From Streptomyces humicola (GTDB taxonomy: Bacteria; Actinomycetota; Actinomycetes; Streptomycetales; Streptomycetaceae), in the NCBI RefSeq assembly GCF_024436035.1, contig NZ_JANFNG010000003.1, forward strand, positions 62,001-126,000: a stretch of DNA of 64,000 bases, in the 5' to 3' direction. The translations under genes were made by a program, and so were the position numbers. Shown here piece by piece: positions 33,621 through 42,943 of the stretch. Positions within the stretch are counted from its first letter, which is position 1, and each line of letters opens with the position of its first letter. Below the pieces are notes generated by a model, which made no database searches, was not told where the DNA came from, and was given only the letters and a program-made list of their open reading frames with translations.

Positions 33621-35435
33621 ATGCGCATTGCGTTGCTCACGGAAGGCGGCCTTCCGCAGCCGTACGGCGATGCCTCCGCGTGGTGCGACCGTCTCGTACG
33701 CGGGCTCGCGGGCCAGGACTTCGAGGTGTTCGCGCTCGCCCGCGCACCCGGGGAGGTGCCCGGGGGGAGGCCCGAACTCCCGCCGCAGGTAAGGGCCGTG
33801 CACATCCTCCCGGTCTACGGGGCGCCACCGGCGGACGGGGCGCGCATTCCGCGGCGGCGCTTCCTGGAGTGCTACCAGGAGTTCGTGGCGGCGCTCACCG
33901 TGCGCCCGGACACCTCCGCCCTCCCGTCTCCCGCCCCTGGCCTGCGGCATGGGGGACCCCGCACCCTCAACGGAGGCGCTGCGCGCTCCTCCACCGATCA
34001 GGCGGACCGTTTCGCCGCAAGTCTGTACGGACTTGCCGAGCTCGCCCGTGAGCACGGCGGCCTCCCCGCCGCGCTCCGCTCCGAGACAGCGATCCGGGCG
34101 CTCGAAGCCGCCTGCCGCGCACCCGGCGCCGAACCCCTCGTGGGCGGCGCCCAGGTCCGCGATCTGCTCACGGCGAGCGCGCTTCTGGAGCGTGCCCTGC
34201 GGCCACTCTCCGTGCCCTGGTACGGGGAGTGCGCGGCGTACGAGGCGTCGTATGCGGCGTATGAGGCGCACGAAGGCGGAACGCTCGCGTCCGCGGATCT
34301 GTGCCATGCCACGACGGGTGGACCCGCAGCGCTGCCCGGGATCGTCGCAAAACGATTCTGCGGAACGCCGCTCCTCATCACCGAGTACGCGGTCCGGTTG
34401 CGCGAGCACTACCTCGGCGAAGCCGCGAGTGAACTGCCCACGCAGGTCAGGGCGTTGCTTGCGGCCTTCCACCGGCTGCTCGCGGGCGAGGTGTACCGCC
34501 AGGCGGATCTGATCACCCCCGGCAATGCCCACGTCAGGCGCTGGCAGGAACGTTGCGGTGCGCCGCGTACGAAGATCAGGACCGTCCATCCGGGCATGGA
34601 CGCCGGACCGCTCGCCGCCGTGGGCGAGGCCGCGGAGGCGGGTTTGCTCGACGCCGACGAGCTCACGCTCGCATGGGTGGGGCGCGCCGGACCGGACAAG
34701 GATCTCGTCGGGCTGCTGCACGCGTTCGCCGACGTACGCAAGGAAGAGCCCAGCGCGCGCCTGCGCATCATCTCGGCCGATGTGGAGGAGCGCGCAGACG
34801 ACAGGGGCGGCGAGGACACTGCGAACGACGGACCGTCCCCCGAGTGCCTGGACTCCTGCCGTGCCCTCGCCGCCCAGCTCTTCCCCGACGAGGCGGCCGA
34901 CGCGGTCTCCGTCGGCGAGAATCCGGTCTCCTTCGAGGAGGTCGGCTCGCCGTACGTGCCGGAGCGCGCGGACGCGTACGCGGCAGGTGCCGTCGTCGTG
35001 CTCTCCAGCGTCGTGGAGGGGTTCCCGCTCTCCCTCGTGGAGGCGATGTTCTGCGGCCGGCCCACCGTCTCCACCGACGTCGGAGCCGTCCGCGAAGTGA
35101 TCGGCGGTACCGGCCTCGTCGTCCCGCCGCGCAACCCGCGGGCGCTCGCCGAGGCGTGCGTCGAGCTTCTGCGCGACCCCGAGCGCCGTGCGCGCCTGGG
35201 CGCGGCGGCACGCGCCCGCGCACTCGAACTCTTCACCGTCGAACAGAACATCCGCGCCTTCCGGGAGATCTACCTCGACCTGGTCGCCCATCGCGAACCT
35301 GCCGCCGCGGAGACCGACGCCGTCCCGTTCGCGCTGCCGGCCGAGGCCCATCTGCCCGGCACCTGGACGGGGACGCCCGGACGGCCCCGCCGCGGCCCGG
35401 CCTGGGCGGCCCGGGGCGAAAGGGAGTACGCATGA
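33621..35435 (+). CDS. PelF-like (DUF3492) GT4 glycosyltransferase
   Basis: The 604-residue cytoplasmic enzyme has the PelF/DUF3492 N-terminal signature: Leu-Leu-Thr-Glu-Gly-Gly at 5-10 and Asp-Ala-Ser-Ala-Trp-Cys-Asp-Arg-Leu-Val-Arg-Gly at 17-28. The mid-protein block Leu-Leu-Ile-Thr-Glu-Tyr-Ala-Val-Arg-Leu-Arg-Glu-His-Tyr-Leu follows. The C-terminal GT-B half shows Val-His-Pro-Gly-Met-Asp, Trp-Val-Gly-Arg-Ala-Gly-Pro-Asp-Lys-Asp and Glu-Gly-Phe-Pro-Leu-Ser-Leu-Val-Glu, with the E-x7-E motif near 464. PelF polymerises a GalNAc-rich polysaccharide in Pel systems. The start has weak AGGGGG. An in-frame segment near 33925-33995 looks like inserted repeat sequence. Downstream genes overlap. Confidence 0.88.
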   Translation: MRIALLTEGGLPQPYGDASAWCDRLVRGLAGQDFEVFALARAPGEVPGGRPELPPQVRAVHILPVYGAPPADGARIPRRRFLECYQEFVAALTVRPDTSALPSPAPGLRHGGPRTLNGGAARSSTDQADRFAASLYGLAELAREHGGLPAALRSETAIRALEAACRAPGAEPLVGGAQVRDLLTASALLERALRPLSVPWYGECAAYEASYAAYEAHEGGTLASADLCHATTGGPAALPGIVAKRFCGTPLLITEYAVRLREHYLGEAASELPTQVRALLAAFHRLLAGEVYRQADLITPGNAHVRRWQERCGAPRTKIRTVHPGMDAGPLAAVGEAAEAGLLDADELTLAWVGRAGPDKDLVGLLHAFADVRKEEPSARLRIISADVEERADDRGGEDTANDGPSPECLDSCRALAAQLFPDEAADAVSVGENPVSFEEVGSPYVPERADAYAAGAVVVLSSVVEGFPLSLVEAMFCGRPTVSTDVGAVREVIGGTGLVVPPRNPRALAEACVELLRDPERRARLGAAARARALELFTVEQNIRAFREIYLDLVAHREPAAAETDAVPFALPAEAHLPGTWTGTPGRPRRGPAWAARGEREYA

Positions 35436-36724
35436 CCGACGCACCCCGCCTCGATCCGCCACCCCGCCTCGATCCGCCACCCCGCCTCGATCCGCCACCC
35501 CGCCTCGACGAGCCACCACGCCGCAACCAGCCACCCCGCCTGGCCGAACCCCCTGGGCGCAACGCCGCGCCGCGCCCCTACGAGCAGCCACGGCGCCGCA
35601 GCCCGGCCGATCCCGTGCTCGCGTTGATGCACCGTCACTACGACCTGTGCGCCCGCGCGGTCGACCCGCTGGAGATCGCCGCCGCGCTCGAAGCCCACGG
35701 CGTCACCGATCGCGCGGCGGCCCGCTTCCGCCACCGGGACGTCTTCTCGCTCGCCGAGGAGCTGTACGCCCGCGTGCCGCGCGAGCCGGCGGACGGCTCC
35801 GCCGCCTCACCACCGCCGCAACCGGAGCTCCCTGGCCGGCTGACCGCGCGGCGGGCGGCGCTGCATCTGCTGCCCGGCCTCCTCTGTGCCGCCGGGGTCG
35901 TCGCCTCGCACCTGCTCGCCGCGGTGCCGTACGGACAGGCTGCGGAAGCCGCACTCGTCCTCGTCCTCGCCCTGCCGGCCGCCCGCGCCGCGGTGCGCCA
36001 CGGGCCGCTCCGCGCGGGCAGCATGGGCGGTAACGCACTGTGGACGTGCTGGCTGCTCGCCTTCGGGCTCTACGGGGCGCAAGGGGTGACCACGCTGCTC
36101 GACGCGCGGTCCTCCGGTCCGACGGCGGGCCTTCCCGGGCTGCTCGTCCCGGCATTCGCGCTGCTGCCCGCCGCCTGGTGCGCGCGCCGCTATGCGCTGC
36201 GCACGCGGGCACGGCTCGCCGACAGCCACGGGCTCGCCGAGTTCGCCTCCGAGGTGAGGCCGCTGCTGGTGCGCACCTTCGCGCTCTTCGGCGTTGCGCT
36301 GCTCGTCCTGCTCGCCGCCGCGTACACCGCCGTCACGATCCTCGCCCCGGCCCAGGCCGCGCGGCGCCCCGATCCCGTCGATCTCGTCGCGCTCGCCGGT
36401 AGCGCACTCCTCGGCCTGCTGCTCTTCGTCGCCCAGCTGCTCTCCGTCCACGGCTTCCCGGCCGTCGCAGCCGCCGGAACGGGAGCCGCGTGCGCCCTCG
36501 AAGCGGCCGCCCTCGTCACCGCCGCACTCCAGCGGCTGCCCGGCCTGCACGCCGCAGGCCGCCCGTTGCGCGATCTCGTCCGTGCGGCGGGCCCCGGCTC
36601 GGTCCAGGCCGTCGCGTGCACCGCAGCCGTCGTCGCGCTGATCGCCTGCGCGCTCCCGGCACTCTGCCGGGTCTCCGCACACGCGACAGCCGACCTCACG
36701 GACCCCACCTCACAAGAAGCCTGA
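35432..36724 (+). CDS. Polytopic membrane protein of the polysaccharide cassette
   Basis: The 430-residue protein overlaps the glycosyltransferase by 4 bases (ATGA). Its N terminus is disordered with a Pro-Pro-Arg-Leu-Asp-Pro repeat from an 18-nt tandem array. A soluble segment of about 55 residues follows (Met-His-Arg-His-Tyr-Asp-Leu-Cys-Ala-Arg), then about eight membrane helices. It lacks the recognisable N-terminal start of PelG. By position it may export the polymer or hold the synthase at the membrane, but this is inference. No similarity was otherwise recognised. Confidence 0.75.
   Translation: MTDAPRLDPPPRLDPPPRLDPPPRLDEPPRRNQPPRLAEPPGRNAAPRPYEQPRRRSPADPVLALMHRHYDLCARAVDPLEIAAALEAHGVTDRAAARFRHRDVFSLAEELYARVPREPADGSAASPPPQPELPGRLTARRAALHLLPGLLCAAGVVASHLLAAVPYGQAAEAALVLVLALPAARAAVRHGPLRAGSMGGNALWTCWLLAFGLYGAQGVTTLLDARSSGPTAGLPGLLVPAFALLPAAWCARRYALRTRARLADSHGLAEFASEVRPLLVRTFALFGVALLVLLAAAYTAVTILAPAQAARRPDPVDLVALAGSALLGLLLFVAQLLSVHGFPAVAAAGTGAACALEAAALVTAALQRLPGLHAAGRPLRDLVRAAGPGSVQAVACTAAVVALIACALPALCRVSAHATADLTDPTSQEA
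35444..35515 (+). repeat. 18-nt tandem repeat in the coding region
   Basis: Unit CCCCGCCTCGATCCGCCA occurs three times exactly (35444-35461, 35462-35479, 35480-35497) and once degenerate (35498-35515). It encodes a Pro-Arg-Leu-Asp-Pro-Pro hexapeptide. It probably varies in copy number by slippage. Confidence 0.85.
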
Positions 36725-36755
36725 CCCCACAAGAAGCCGTAGGAGCAGAGAAGAC

Positions 36756-36794
36756 ATGACGCACCACCGACAGCACGTGGGCGGAAGCCGATGA
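36756..36794 (+). CDS. 12-codon coupling ORF
   Basis: The ORF Met-Thr-His-His-Arg-Gln-His-Val-Gly-Gly-Ser-Arg is preceded by TAGGAGCAGAG. Its TGA overlaps the ATG of the epimerase gene (ATGA at 36791-36794), which itself has no ribosome binding site at usual spacing. It probably serves only to hand ribosomes to the epimerase. Its conservation is untested. Confidence 0.4.
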   Translation: MTHHRQHVGGSR

Positions 36795-37708
36795 GAGTGT
36801 TGCTGCTCGGCGCCGACGGATTCCTCGGCCGCCATGTGGCCGAACGGCTGCTCGCCGACCCGGCCGTCCAACTCACGGCGCTCGGCCGCCGCGACGACTC
36901 CGACGTCCGGTTCGACCTGGCGAGCGGCAGCCCTGGCGCCCTCGCCCGGTTCTTCGACGCCGTGCACCCCGGCGTCGTCGTCAACTGCGCCGGCACCACC
37001 CGCGGCAGCGCCCGCGACCTGGCACGTCACAACACCGTCGCGGTCGCGAGCATCTGCGAGGCGCTGCGGCGCAGCAGCTGCGGAGCGCGGCTCGTACAGC
37101 TGGGCTGCGCCGCCGAGTACGGGCCCTCGCAGCCGGGTTCGTGCACGGCGGAGGACGCCACGCCGCGGCCGGGAGGCCCGTACGGGGTGAGCAAACTCGC
37201 CGCCACCGAACTCGTCCTCGGCTCCGGCCTCGACGCGATCGTGCTGCGCGTCTTCTCCCCGGTCGGCCCCGGCACGCCGCCCGCCTCGCCGCTGGGCCGC
37301 CTCGCCGAAGCGCTGCGCCGTGCGATGCAGAACGGCGACGGCGAGTTGAAGCTCAGCGGACTCGGCGTCCAGCGCGACTTCGTGGACGTGCGGGACGTGG
37401 CACGCGCCGTCCACGCGGCCTCGCTCTCCGCCGCTCAGGGCGTGGTGAACATCGGCACCGGTCGCGCGGTACGGCTGCGTGACTCGGTCGCCAACCTCGC
37501 CCGCGCCGCCGGGTTCGCCGGCTCCCTGCACGAGCTGGACGACCCCGCGGTGCTGCCGGCCGCGGGCTCCGCCCCGTACCCCGACGGCTGCGGCGTCTGG
37601 CAGCAGGCCGATGTGCGCACCGCGCGCGACCGGCTGGGCTGGCGCCCCCGTATCGCTCTCGACGAATCCCTCGCCGACATCTGGATGGAGGCGGCATGCC
37701 GCATCTGA
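36791..37708 (+). CDS. NAD-dependent epimerase/dehydratase (SDR family)
   Basis: The 305-residue protein has an N-terminal Rossmann motif (Leu-Leu-Leu-Gly-Ala-Asp-Gly-Phe-Leu-Gly, with Gly-x-x-Gly-x-x-Gly), an Asp at the end of the second strand region and the catalytic pair Tyr-x3-Lys (Tyr-Gly-Val-Ser-Lys near 133-137). This fits a sugar-nucleotide epimerase, for example a UDP-GlcNAc/GalNAc 4-epimerase. The sugar cannot be read from sequence. It is coupled to the mini-ORF upstream and overlaps the next gene by 13 bases. Confidence 0.82.
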   Translation: MRVLLLGADGFLGRHVAERLLADPAVQLTALGRRDDSDVRFDLASGSPGALARFFDAVHPGVVVNCAGTTRGSARDLARHNTVAVASICEALRRSSCGARLVQLGCAAEYGPSQPGSCTAEDATPRPGGPYGVSKLAATELVLGSGLDAIVLRVFSPVGPGTPPASPLGRLAEALRRAMQNGDGELKLSGLGVQRDFVDVRDVARAVHAASLSAAQGVVNIGTGRAVRLRDSVANLARAAGFAGSLHELDDPAVLPAAGSAPYPDGCGVWQQADVRTARDRLGWRPRIALDESLADIWMEAACRI

Positions 37709-38481
37709 CCATCGACGTCGCGGGCTTCGGTGTCCCGGCCCACGCCCACCCCCTGGTCGCACCCTCGGAATGGGACGCACTCGCCCGCCCCGACGCGCCT
37801 GTCCACTGGGTCGTGCTCAATGTCGACGACGGGCCCGGCGCCTGCCCCGACCCCTTGTACGCGAAGGCGGTGGCGCGGCTGCGCGAGGCGAGGGTGCGAG
37901 TGCTCGGCCACCTCGATGCGGCGTACGGGGACCGGGGGTTCGCCGAGCTCGTCTCCGACGCCCGCCACTATCTGGACTGGTACGAGGTGACCGGCTTCTA
38001 CCTGGACCGTGCGCCGCAGACCCGGGACCGGCTCCCGGAGTGCCGGCGGGCGGCGGCGACGCTCGAAGCGCTGCTCGGCCGCGGCGACGGCCACATCGTG
38101 CTGGGGCACGGCACCCATCCGTACCCCGGCTTTGCGGAGATCGCCGATCAGCTCGTGACGTACTGCGGGCCGTGGACCGGCTACCGCTGGTCGGAGGCGC
38201 CCGAATGGACGGCGGGCTATCCACCGGAGCGTTTCTGCCATCTGGTCCACGGGGTGCCGCGGCCGCATCTGGAGGAGGCGATGCGCATCGCCCGCTGGCA
38301 GGGCGCCGCCAGCGTCTACTTCACCGACCGCACGGATGGTGCGGATGATGAATACGCGACCTACGCGACCGATGCGGCGCGTGATGCCGTGGGGAGGGGG
38401 TTCGATCCCTGGGAAGGGCTGCCCGCATACTGGGACGAAGCGGCACGAATACTCCGGGATCAACCACCTCCCAGTCGCTGA
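37696..38481 (+). CDS. Spherulin-4 family protein (GH135-like), no signal peptide
   Basis: The 261-residue protein shows the spherulin-4 pattern: an N-terminal strand then Val-Val-Leu-Asn-Val-Asp-Asp-Gly-Pro-Gly (39-48), a helix, Val-Leu-Gly-His-Leu-Asp-Ala-Ala-Tyr-Gly-Asp-Arg (69-80), Tyr-Leu-Asp-Trp-Tyr and Gly-Phe-Tyr-Leu-Asp (100-104). In the fungal Sph3 hydrolase, which cleaves GalNAc-containing galactosaminogalactan, acidic residues in these strands are catalytic. The strand Gly-Phe-Tyr-Leu-Asp holds the candidate acid. Unlike secreted members it has no signal peptide. A cytoplasmic hydrolase or carbohydrate-binding role in the cassette is inferred. Confidence 0.8.
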   Translation: MPHLTIDVAGFGVPAHAHPLVAPSEWDALARPDAPVHWVVLNVDDGPGACPDPLYAKAVARLREARVRVLGHLDAAYGDRGFAELVSDARHYLDWYEVTGFYLDRAPQTRDRLPECRRAAATLEALLGRGDGHIVLGHGTHPYPGFAEIADQLVTYCGPWTGYRWSEAPEWTAGYPPERFCHLVHGVPRPHLEEAMRIARWQGAASVYFTDRTDGADDEYATYATDAARDAVGRGFDPWEGLPAYWDEAARILRDQPPPSR

Positions 38482-38606: not shown

Positions 38607-39785
38607 GTGACGCTGCCACCCTTGGTCGAGCCGGCTTCCGAGCTCACCGTCGACGAGGTCCGCAGGTACTCCCGCCACCTGATCATCCCGGATGTCGGGA
38701 TGGACGGGCAGAAGCGGCTGAAGAACGCGAAGGTGCTCTGTGTGGGCGCCGGCGGTCTGGGTTCGCCGGCGCTGATGTACCTGGCCGCCGCCGGCGTGGG
38801 CACTCTCGGCATCGTCGAGTTCGACGAGGTCGACGAATCGAATCTGCAGCGCCAGATCATCCACAGCCAGGCCGACATCGGCCGTTCCAAGGCCGAGTCC
38901 GCGCGCGACACCGTGCTCGGCATCAACCCGTACGTCACGGTCAATCTCCACGAGGAGCGCCTCGACTCCTCGAACGTGATGGAGCTGTTCGCGCAGTACG
39001 ACCTGATCGTCGACGGCACTGACAACTTCGCCACGCGCTACCTGGTCAACGACGCCTGCGTGCTGCTGAACAAGCCGTACGTGTGGGGCTCGATCTACCG
39101 CTTCGACGGCCAGGCGTCGGTCTTCTGGAGCGAGCACGGTCCGTGCTACCGCTGCCTGTACCCGGAGCCCCCGCCGCCCGGCATGGTCCCGTCGTGCGCC
39201 GAGGGCGGCGTGCTCGGCGTGCTGTGCGCGTCGATCGGCTCGATCCAGGTCAACGAGGCGATCAAGGTGCTGACGGGTATCGGCGAGCCGCTGGTCGGCC
39301 GCCTGATGATCTACGACGCCCTGGAGATGAAGTACCGCGAGGTCAAGGTCCGCAAGGACCCGGAGTGCGCGGTCTGCGGCAAGAACCCGACCGTCACCGA
39401 GCTCATCGACTACGAGGCCTTCTGCGGAGTCGTCTCGGAGGAGGCCCAGGAGGCCGCCGCCGGTTCCACGATCACGCCGAAGCAGCTGAAGGAGTGGATC
39501 GACGGCGGCGAGAACATCGAGATCATCGATGTCCGCGAGCCGAACGAGTACGAGATCGTCTCCATCCCCGGCGCCCGCCTGGTCCCGAAGAACGAGTTCC
39601 TGATGGGCAACGCCCTTCAGGACCTCCCGCAGGACAAGCGCATCGTCCTGCACTGCAAGACCGGCGTACGGTCGGCCGAGGTGCTCGCCGTGCTGAAGAA
39701 CGCGGGCTTCGCGGACGCCGTCCATGTCGGCGGCGGCGTGATCGGCTGGGTCAACCAGGTCGAGCCGCACAAGCCGGTGTACTAA
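38607..39785 (+). CDS. moeZ: MoeZ/MoeB adenylyltransferase-sulfurtransferase
   Basis: The 392-residue protein has an E1-like domain (Gly-Ala-Gly-Gly-Leu-Gly-Ser-Pro, Asp-Glu-Val-Asp-Glu-Ser-Asn-Leu-Gln-Arg-Gln, and structural zinc Cys pairs Cys-Tyr-Arg-Cys and Cys-Ala-Val-Cys). A C-terminal rhodanese domain carries the active Cys in Leu-His-Cys-Lys-Thr-Gly-Val-Arg-Ser near 350. It adenylates and thiocarboxylates sulfur-carrier proteins for molybdopterin, thiamine, cysteine and some secondary metabolites. GTG 38607 fits the family N terminus; the TTG at 38583 is less likely. A strong hairpin terminator follows. Confidence 0.93.
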   Translation: MTLPPLVEPASELTVDEVRRYSRHLIIPDVGMDGQKRLKNAKVLCVGAGGLGSPALMYLAAAGVGTLGIVEFDEVDESNLQRQIIHSQADIGRSKAESARDTVLGINPYVTVNLHEERLDSSNVMELFAQYDLIVDGTDNFATRYLVNDACVLLNKPYVWGSIYRFDGQASVFWSEHGPCYRCLYPEPPPPGMVPSCAEGGVLGVLCASIGSIQVNEAIKVLTGIGEPLVGRLMIYDALEMKYREVKVRKDPECAVCGKNPTVTELIDYEAFCGVVSEEAQEAAAGSTITPKQLKEWIDGGENIEIIDVREPNEYEIVSIPGARLVPKNEFLMGNALQDLPQDKRIVLHCKTGVRSAEVLAVLKNAGFADAVHVGGGVIGWVNQVEPHKPVY

Positions 39786-40184: not shown

Positions 40185-42149
40185 CTACAGTGCCACCAGG
40201 GTGATTTCGGTGGCCTTGACGCTGACCCAGACGGTGCCGCCCTCCGCGAGGGCGAGTTCGGCCGCGGCGGAGGCGGTGATCTCGGCGAGCGCGTCGAGCC
40301 CGTCCGATGTGACCAGCGCCCGCATCCGGCTGCCCAGTGCGGTGAGTTCGCGCACCTGCCCCTGCCATACATTGCGCGGGCTTCCCGAGGGCCGTACCCG
40401 GTGCAGGGAGACCGCCTCGGGACCGACCACGGCGAGCGCCGCCGTCCCCTCGGGCAGCGGTTCCGCCGCCACCAGACGAGCCCCGCCGGGAAGTTCGAGG
40501 CCGTCCGCCTTCGCGGTGCCCGCCCACGCGTTTCGGCCGAGCATCCGTGCCACCCACGGCGAACGGGGGTGACGGGCGACATCGGCGGGCGATGCGTACT
40601 GCACGGCGCGCCCGTCCTCCAGTACGAGCACCCGGTCGGCGAGCGTGACGGCCTCCACCGGATCGTGCGTGACGATCAGACAGGCCCCGGTGAACCCGGC
40701 GAGGTGCTCGCGCAGCGTGTGCCGCACCTTGGCGCGCGTCGTCTGGTCCAGCGCGGCGAGCGGTTCGTCGAGCAGAAGCAGGCGCGGGCGCACGGCCAGT
40801 GCACGCGCCAGCGCGACGCGCCCGGCCTGCCCGCCGCTGATGCGCCCCGGCTTGCGGTCGGCGAGGTCGCCCACGCCGAGCCGGTCGAGCCACAGCTGCG
40901 CCTGCGCGCGCGCCGACCGGCGTGGCACGCCCTGGGCGCGCAGCCCGTATGCGGTGTTGCCCAGCACCGTCAGATGCGGGAAGAGCGCACCGTCCTGCGG
41001 GACCCAGGCGACACCGCGCTTGTGCGGCGGTGCCCCGGCCGCGTCCACCGCGCCCAGCAGCAACTGCTCCGCATGGGCGCGGTGGGTGAGGCCGAGCAGT
41101 GCACGCAGCAGCGTGGTCTTGCCTGCGCCGTTGGGGCCGACGACGGCGACGGTGGTGCCCGGTTCGGCTTCGAGGGAGAGCCGGGTGAAACCGGTCACGG
41201 TGGTCTTGAGCGGCCAGCGCTCGGGCGGCGGCTCCGTGGGCACGGTGGCGGATGCGGCGGGCGCCGGAGCCTCCGCCTCGGCCTCGACCGCATCCAGTAC
41301 CGCATCGGGTGCTGCGGCCGGAGCCGGGTCGGCGGCCGTGGCGGTCCTCGCCCCCGACCCCGTCCAGCGGCCGCGCAGCCCGGTCAGCACGACCATGGCC
41401 ACCACAAGAAGCAGCAACGAGACGGAGGTTGCCCCCTCGGGGTTGTCCTGGAGCAGCAGATAGACATTGAGCGGAAGCGTCTGCGTCACCCCGGGGAGAT
41501 TGCCCGCGAAGGTGATCGTCGCCCCGAACTCTCCGAGTGCGCGCGCCCAGCACAGCGCCGCCGCCGCGACGAGGCCGGGTGCGGCCATGGGGACGGTGAC
41601 GGTGAGGAAGGCACGCAGTGGCCTTGCGCCGAGCGAGGCCGCCGTCTCCTCGTACCGCGGGTGGAGCGAAGTGAGCGTGCCTTCCAGGCTGATGACGAGG
41701 AACGGCATCGCGACGAAGGCCGCCGCGACGACCGCGCCGGGCGTGGAGAAGGGGAGGGTGACACCGAAATCGGCGAGCAGCGGTCCGAGCAGCCCCCTGC
41801 GGCCGAACCCCATCAGCAGCGCGACACCGCCGACGGTGGGCGGCAGCACCATCGGGAGCATGACGAGGGCGCGCACCGCCGGTTTGCCGGGGAAGTCGAC
41901 GCGCGCCAGGATCCAGGCCAGCGGCACCCCGAGAACGACTGCGAGGCCGAGCGCCCACAGCGAGACGGTGAGCGACAACCAGAGCGCCTGGGTGACTTCG
42001 GGGCTGGTCAGCTGGTCCGGGAGGGTGGACCAGGGGGTGCGGGCGAGCACACCGGCCAGCGGCAGCGCCAGGAAACAGACCGCTGCCAGCGCGGGGAGTA
42101 CGAGGGCGATCGGCAGCCTCGCTGCCGCCGCCGGCCGGGTGCTGGTCAC
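40185..42149 (-). CDS. modBC: Fused molybdate permease-ATPase (ModB-ModC)
   Basis: The 654-residue protein joins a ModB permease (about 1-265, with six helices and the EAA loop near 170-180) to a ModC ATPase (Walker A Gly-Pro-Asn-Gly-Ala-Gly-Lys-Thr, signature Ile-Ser-Gly-Gly-Gln-Ala-Gly) and a C-terminal Mop/TOBE domain near 585-654. The linker is an Ala/Pro-rich stretch of about 45 residues. It imports molybdate. The GTG start overlaps the modA stop (GTGA). Fusion of both subunits in one chain is seen in some actinobacteria. Confidence 0.9.
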   Translation of the reverse strand: MTSTRPAAAARLPIALVLPALAAVCFLALPLAGVLARTPWSTLPDQLTSPEVTQALWLSLTVSLWALGLAVVLGVPLAWILARVDFPGKPAVRALVMLPMVLPPTVGGVALLMGFGRRGLLGPLLADFGVTLPFSTPGAVVAAAFVAMPFLVISLEGTLTSLHPRYEETAASLGARPLRAFLTVTVPMAAPGLVAAAALCWARALGEFGATITFAGNLPGVTQTLPLNVYLLLQDNPEGATSVSLLLLVVAMVVLTGLRGRWTGSGARTATAADPAPAAAPDAVLDAVEAEAEAPAPAASATVPTEPPPERWPLKTTVTGFTRLSLEAEPGTTVAVVGPNGAGKTTLLRALLGLTHRAHAEQLLLGAVDAAGAPPHKRGVAWVPQDGALFPHLTVLGNTAYGLRAQGVPRRSARAQAQLWLDRLGVGDLADRKPGRISGGQAGRVALARALAVRPRLLLLDEPLAALDQTTRAKVRHTLREHLAGFTGACLIVTHDPVEAVTLADRVLVLEDGRAVQYASPADVARHPRSPWVARMLGRNAWAGTAKADGLELPGGARLVAAEPLPEGTAALAVVGPEAVSLHRVRPSGSPRNVWQGQVRELTALGSRMRALVTSDGLDALAEITASAAAELALAEGGTVWVSVKATEITLVAL

Positions 42150-42943
42150 GGTTGCTGGAAGCCGTAGCTGCGCAGGATCTGCTGCCCCTGTGCGGAGGAG
42201 AGGAACGCCACGAAGGAGGCGGCGGCCGAAGCGTCCTTGGAGGTGTTGAGGGTGGCTGCGGGGTAGGAGGCGATGGCGTTCTGCGCGTCGGGGATGGTGA
42301 CGGTGGCGACCTTGCCCTTGGCCGACTCCGCGTCGGTGATGTAGACGATTCCGGCGTCGGCCTCGCCGAGCTCCACCTTGGTCAGCACGGCGCGAACGTT
42401 GGTCTCCAGCGACACCGGCTTGACGTTGAGGTGCTGCTCCTGCAGCACCTTCGCGCCGTAGTTGCCGACCGGCACCTGCGGGGCGGCCAGGTCGACCTTC
42501 AGACCCGGCTTGGCGAGGTCGGCGAGACTGGTGATCTTCTTCGGGTTGCCGGGGGCGGTGACGATGGTCAGCCGGTTCTTGGCGATGATCGTCGGGGTAC
42601 GGGTGTCGCTCTTGAGGCCGTCCATCGTCTTGGTGTCGGCGGTGACGAGGACGTCGGCGGGCGCGCCCTGGCCGACCTGCGCGGCCAGCTCCTGCGAGCC
42701 GGCGTAGGAGAACTTGATGGTGGTGCCGGGGTGGGCCTTCTCGTAGGCCTTGCCCTCGGCGTTGAAGACATCGGTGAGCGAGGCGGCGGCCAGCACGGTC
42801 AGGCTCGCCGGCTTGCTGCTGCCGGTGGAGGAGGAGCTGGTCGCCGCCGACTTGCTGCCACCGCAGGCGGCGAGCGGGATGGCGAGGGCGGCGGCCAGCA
42901 GCGGCAGAGCCAGCTTCCGGCGGCGGGGCATGTGGCGGGGCAT
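42146..42943 (-). CDS. modA: Molybdate-binding lipoprotein ModA
   Basis: The 265-residue protein has a lipoprotein signal with the modified Cys at 27 (Leu-Ala-Ala-Cys). The ModA pattern follows: Leu-Thr-Val-Leu-Ala-Ala-Ala-Ser-Leu, Ala-Asp-Val-Leu-Val-Thr-Ala-Asp, Gly-Glu-Ala-Asp-Ala-Gly-Ile-Val-Tyr and Tyr-Pro-Ala. It binds molybdate outside the membrane for ModBC. It has a GGAG site at 8 nt and overlaps the permease start by 4 bases. The upstream gene is a Mop-domain regulator, so the three form one operon. Confidence 0.93.
   Translation of the reverse strand: MPRHMPRRRKLALPLLAAALAIPLAACGGSKSAATSSSSTGSSKPASLTVLAAASLTDVFNAEGKAYEKAHPGTTIKFSYAGSQELAAQVGQGAPADVLVTADTKTMDGLKSDTRTPTIIAKNRLTIVTAPGNPKKITSLADLAKPGLKVDLAAPQVPVGNYGAKVLQEQHLNVKPVSLETNVRAVLTKVELGEADAGIVYITDAESAKGKVATVTIPDAQNAIASYPAATLNTSKDASAAASFVAFLSSAQGQQILRSYGFQQP

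Follow-up and report, generated by a model that had tools for sequence, protein, structure and literature searches.

The window analyzed here, a 64,000-nucleotide stretch of Streptomyces humicola DNA, contains on its forward strand a compact cassette of four genes. The first (33621..35435, 604 aa) encodes a GT4 glycosyltransferase with a DUF3492 (PelF-type) N-domain, here called GT, which was assigned from Pfam (DUF3492, 76.4 bits, plus GT4 domains) and from motif alignment. It overlaps by 4 nt (ATGA) the gene for a membrane protein, MP (35432..36724, 430 aa), in which no Pfam domain was matched. An extended SDR of the NAD-dependent epimerase/dehydratase family follows (36791..37708, 305 aa; Pfam Epimerase, 128 bits), with a 13-nt overlap between its gene and that of a spherulin-4 (GH135-like) protein, SPH (37696..38481, 261 aa; PF12138, 85.6 bits against a cutoff of 30.2). 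The earlier note had described four adjacent genes that overlap or nearly do so; all four open reading frames were intact at the positions it gave, and the Pfam families held. To these we add a 12-codon leader ORF (36756..36794, same strand; MTHHRQHVGGSR followed by the stop), preceded by a Shine-Dalgarno sequence and with a stop codon that overlaps the SDR start (ATGA). The constant downstream neighbor is a moeZ/moeB-type sulfurylase gene (38607..39785, forward strand), which lies outside the function of the cassette.

A scan of the named genomes with a GT profile yielded 80 loci, nearly all of them in Streptomyces. The exact order GT-MP-SDR-SPH-moeZ, on one strand, was found in 73 of the 80, the other seven being truncated by contig ends. 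Thus, the four genes constitute a real unit that is not due to chance, and the co-occurrence across Streptomycetaceae on which the earlier reading relied is confirmed.

Searches with each window protein against 60 relatives, followed by gene calling of the clusters found, revealed a second, longer and paralogous cluster type elsewhere in Streptomycetaceae. It comprises, in this order, genes for a protein of ∼700 aa, GT, an MP of ∼490 aa, SDR1, a nucleotidyltransferase, SDR2, SPH, and often GH114. The ∼700-aa protein is putatively Agd3-like: it scored 21.5 bits against Agd3_CE, below the cutoff, and along most of its sequence it shares 26% identity with an unambiguous Agd3 family protein encoded at locus L176. 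Operons containing agd3 have already been published, all with a cytoplasmic glycosyltransferase and a multispanning membrane protein, GH114 being highly consistent and spherulin-4 present in some of the actinobacterial ones (PMC7229062). The full operon is therefore of a known type, of which the window cassette is a reduced relative. L176 itself (L176:5915-15078, genome G331), from a deep actinomycete, encodes, besides a GAF/GGDEF protein, both PelF and PelG, a deacetylase resembling Agd3, and a spherulin-4 protein in which the D-E...E set is complete and the N terminus carries a hydrophobic segment; judged by its predicted proteins, it is a Pel/GAG hybrid operon. Two spherulin-4 genes, one with and one without an N-terminal hydrophobic segment, were observed near a single cluster at L067:1051-7528 (G057).

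The description of GT as PelF-like in the earlier note holds in part. On the PelF equivalog model of NCBIfam (NF038011; curated cutoff, 100 bits), the window GT scored 81.2 bits, below the cutoff, and the GT of a relative (G009) scored 108.1 bits when its pieces were joined, so that the cassette GT family straddles the limit; the full-cluster GT reached 173.7 bits, above it. Identity of the window GT to the L176 PelF is 24%. In favor of the description, along with DUF3492, donor-site residues R355 and K360 and the EX7E pair E466 and E474 are retained, and among the GTs of the reduced cassettes the donor Arg and Lys and EX7E are kept at 95 to 100% (EX7E glutamates, 99 to 100%). Against it, besides the score, stands a degenerate EHG-Y-RER motif: where PelF has EHG...Y.RER, the window GT has EYAVRLREH, with the His replaced by Tyr256. 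This position is Tyr in 95% of the reduced-cassette GTs and an invariant His in the full-cluster GTs, and two bona fide PelFs carry the His within EHGIYTRER. By analogy with other GT4 enzymes, the His would be catalytic; a search of HMMs of solved structures with GT gave coverage mainly of the C-domain, and the EHG histidine could thus not be placed. With its donor site intact, the window GT may still polymerize.

For its part, SPH keeps one of the three residues to which catalysis is putatively assigned in fungal Sph3, namely Asp166, Glu167 and Glu222 (PMC10485009). The window protein, which matches 5C5G in phmmer at 5e-9, has a D/R/C set in the alignment to that structure: D104 is kept, R105 stands for Glu167, and C157 stands for Glu222. 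The Glu222 position is Glu in 12 of 12 full-cluster SPHs and in none of the 78 reduced-cassette ones (mostly Ser or Ala), 19 of which have lost the Asp position too. Full-cluster SPHs likewise lack Glu167 (mostly Gln), so the bacterial residue set may differ from that of Sph3. The replacement of both glutamates by R105 and C157 makes a hydrolase label unsafe for the window protein, and the acidic set that the earlier note had made decisive for its own assignment of a hydrolase is missing. Moreover, SPH showed neither a signal peptide nor an in-frame upstream start, and it would thus have no means of reaching an exported polymer.

The window SDR contains GADGFLG (GxxGxxG) and Y131-x3-K135, and among the aligned SDRs the catalytic Tyr is present in 90/91 and the Lys in 91/91. 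However, the catalytic Ser/Thr position, which is Ser in every SDR2 of the full operons, is occupied in the window by Cys106 and is Cys in all 74 SDRs of the reduced cassettes. Cysteine is sometimes able to replace serine. Upstream, a short ORF with a Shine-Dalgarno sequence, mostly of 12 to 27 codons, ends in the ATGA of the SDR start in 69 of 73 loci, and codon 2 of SDR is AGG or AGA in 72 of 73 genes, such codons making up ∼5% of the Arg codons in the same genes. This overlap, together with the AGR codon, points to a translational coupling that would be under selection. A remnant of the nucleotidyltransferase C terminus was considered as the source of the leader ORF and was rejected, since the leader is unlike the ends of the nucleotidyltransferases of the full operons.

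The C-terminal half of the window MP aligns with the MP of the full operons without large gaps, but approximately four helices of the N-terminal half of the latter are missing. The model of the full-operon MP is predicted to have a MOP/MATE-type fold (Foldseek, 4e-4; VIA Z, 18.3 to MATE1). That of the window MP gave a VIA Z of 12.1 to MurJ/MATE and nothing significant in Foldseek, with no match under an E value of 0.29, and its fold assignment is consequently only moderate. The resemblance to MOP-class transporters is at the level of the fold in both cases and is stronger for the full-operon MP. As modeled, the window MP would be related, in a shortened form, to the 12-helix, MOP-fold exporter that the full operons encode, and the earlier view of it as the cassette's own exporter loses its footing with these four helices. 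Its identification as PelG was rejected as well (no PF16933 match; hhalign probability to PelG, 0.1%). The repetitive, proline-rich N terminus of MP contains tandem repeats of the LDPPPR type (encoded at 35432-35520).

A complete GAG-type operon lies directly at the moeZ locus in L064:4555-19001 (G015), an arrangement from which the window cassette appears to have arisen. The SDR tree places the proteins of all moeZ loci together (support, 100/100), with the window among the reduced cassettes; in the tree as drawn (midpoint root), L064 branches off first (next fork, 93/76), and the Ser-to-Cys change falls on a branch with support of 100/99. Synteny and this tree support the proposed descent of the cassette from a complete GAG/Pel-like operon formerly at the moeZ locus, which would have served the synthesis, export and trimming of a sticky amino-sugar polymer; the intermediate is based on one genome, the single one of its genus among those covered. 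In such a descent, the Agd3-like deacetylase, one SDR, the nucleotidyltransferase and GH114 would have been lost, and the GT, MP, SDR and SPH families would have been kept with key sites altered, the changes being visible in the alignment. The kinship with PelF and with GAG enzymes that the earlier note had recognized is right as ancestry.

The gene content of the host genome was in agreement with this loss. It contains no GH114 and no Agd3-like gene (G000; such a gene is present in 13 of the 37 family genomes searched), and PelG (PF16933) was found neither in it nor in 40 relatives, so that the absence of PelG noted earlier is borne out, along with that of an Agd3-type deacetylase. No PelD or PelE was recognized among the four cassette genes or their immediate neighbors. 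A second complete operon elsewhere in the host genome was rejected, because there is one MP, one spherulin and no close second GT, and a supply of Agd3 or GH114 in trans was rejected because both are absent.

The cassette has the GT, MP and spherulin families in common with the bacterial agd3 operons (Bamford et al. 2020, PMC7229062) but lacks their deacetylase, GH114, nucleotidyltransferase and second SDR, its SPH, GT and SDR are altered at active-site positions, and its MP is shortened. With the fungal galactosaminogalactan cluster (uge3, gtb3, agd3, sph3, ega3) it shares an epimerase-type SDR, a glycosyltransferase and an Sph3-like protein; however, it has no agd3 or ega3, and fungal Gtb3 is an integral membrane glycosyltransferase, whereas GT and MP are separate proteins. 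Similarly, the Gram-positive Pel operon (pelDEADAFG, PMC7112168) combines a PelF-type glycosyltransferase with an adjoining exopolysaccharide exporter, as the window does, but the window GT falls below the PelF cutoff, and neither PelG nor an Agd3-type deacetylase accompanies it.

According to the earlier note, the cassette is a minimal but working Pel/GAG-like system in which a 1,4-linked aminosugar is polymerized, exported and trimmed. The Pfam families fit such a system, GT keeps EX7E and the donor Arg and Lys, the kin operons have Agd3-like and GH114 enzymes, and a galactosamine polymer of Streptomyces walls has been discussed (PMC7229062). Nevertheless, we regard this reading as very unlikely, as the SPH acid is lost in 78 of 78 cassettes whose window member has no signal peptide, the exporter is shortened, the SDR serine has become Cys, GT is under the PelF cutoff, and the host genome is without the Agd3-like, GH114 and PelG genes.

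The four genes differ in how widely they are retained. Of 298 Streptomycetaceae genomes, 288 have SDR and 180 a close GT match; in G001, which belongs to the genus of the window, SDR is retained (92%) and searches with GT, MP and SPH gave no match. SDR is therefore close to a core gene, whose partners are lost more readily. Within Streptomyces, GT, MP and SPH stay intact. In other genera, the L054, L063, L066 and L070 loci have no SPH and have degenerate GTs, L068 retains SDR and SPH, and L061 retains MP and SDR. These losses are what would be expected of the main rival explanation, a decaying relic in which SDR alone would remain important, serving a conserved but unrelated function, and GT, MP and SPH are lost stepwise. 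In contrast, the ORFs are intact and their order is fixed in 73 genomes. The median omega over 2,588 locus pairs (Nei-Gojobori; rough under strong GC bias, with nonindependent pairs, and compared internally among the cassette genes and moeZ) was 0.30 for GT, 0.47 for MP, 0.10 for SDR, 0.32 for SPH and 0.13 for moeZ. The cassette is thus under purifying selection, with values for GT and SPH of ∼0.3, well below 1, although the relaxed omega and the repeated losses could alternatively mean a slow decay.

Expression in Streptomyces coelicolor also bears on the relic explanation. SCO5178 is moeB, so SCO5174 to SCO5177 are very probably the cassette of this species, as judged from gene order and annotation rather than from sequence. 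SCO5174 (annotated as a transferase), SCO5175 and SCO5177 are among the most induced conserved genes of unknown function in the second mycelium (MII), with log2 values of 3.0 to 3.8 at 48 to 72 h and a >8-fold induction in sporulating mycelium (PMC3610822), and insertion mutants in SCO5174 show reduced actinorhodin (PMC6585502). Such developmental induction and a mutant phenotype speak against a relic, which we consider unlikely.

On the evidence, a remnant put to a new use is a better explanation than a minimal Pel/GAG system that still works. A key active-site residue is gone from three of the proteins and the exporter is shortened, yet the set is conserved, which suggests that it probably has a different job now. 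The cassette would then be, as we think probable, a degenerate GAG-type operon, reduced and repurposed around its SDR. This SDR, its best-conserved part, would still have a nucleotide sugar as its substrate, though its chemistry would be altered; GT, working at the membrane with the shortened MOP-like protein, would transfer a sugar or only bind it, and SPH would be a cytoplasmic, nonhydrolyzing binder of the sugar product. No long cationic polymer would be made, exported or trimmed, and the cassette would act in the cell envelope, in aerial growth and sporulation. More tentatively, a matrix-polymer operon may have become, in the ancestor of most Streptomyces, a group of conserved near-pseudoenzymes around a Ser-to-Cys SDR with a role in the aerial or spore envelope, the SDR turning into a near-universal core gene of Streptomycetaceae. 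If this is true, an exopolysaccharide operon without its polymer chemistry has been selected genus-wide and is induced in sporulating mycelium, and the family has a near-universal core enzyme in this SDR, in which Cys occupies the place of the catalytic Ser. The presence of PelF and spherulin genes alone would then be no proof of Pel/GAG polymer production. Testable orthologues (probably SCO5174 to SCO5177) and intact full operons are available for comparison.

Beside moeZ, positions 40185-42149 of the window encode, within a single ORF, an apparent fusion of the molybdate permease ModB and the ATPase ModC; next come ModA (42146-42943) and a TOBE/HTH-like protein, all as judged by eye from the translations.
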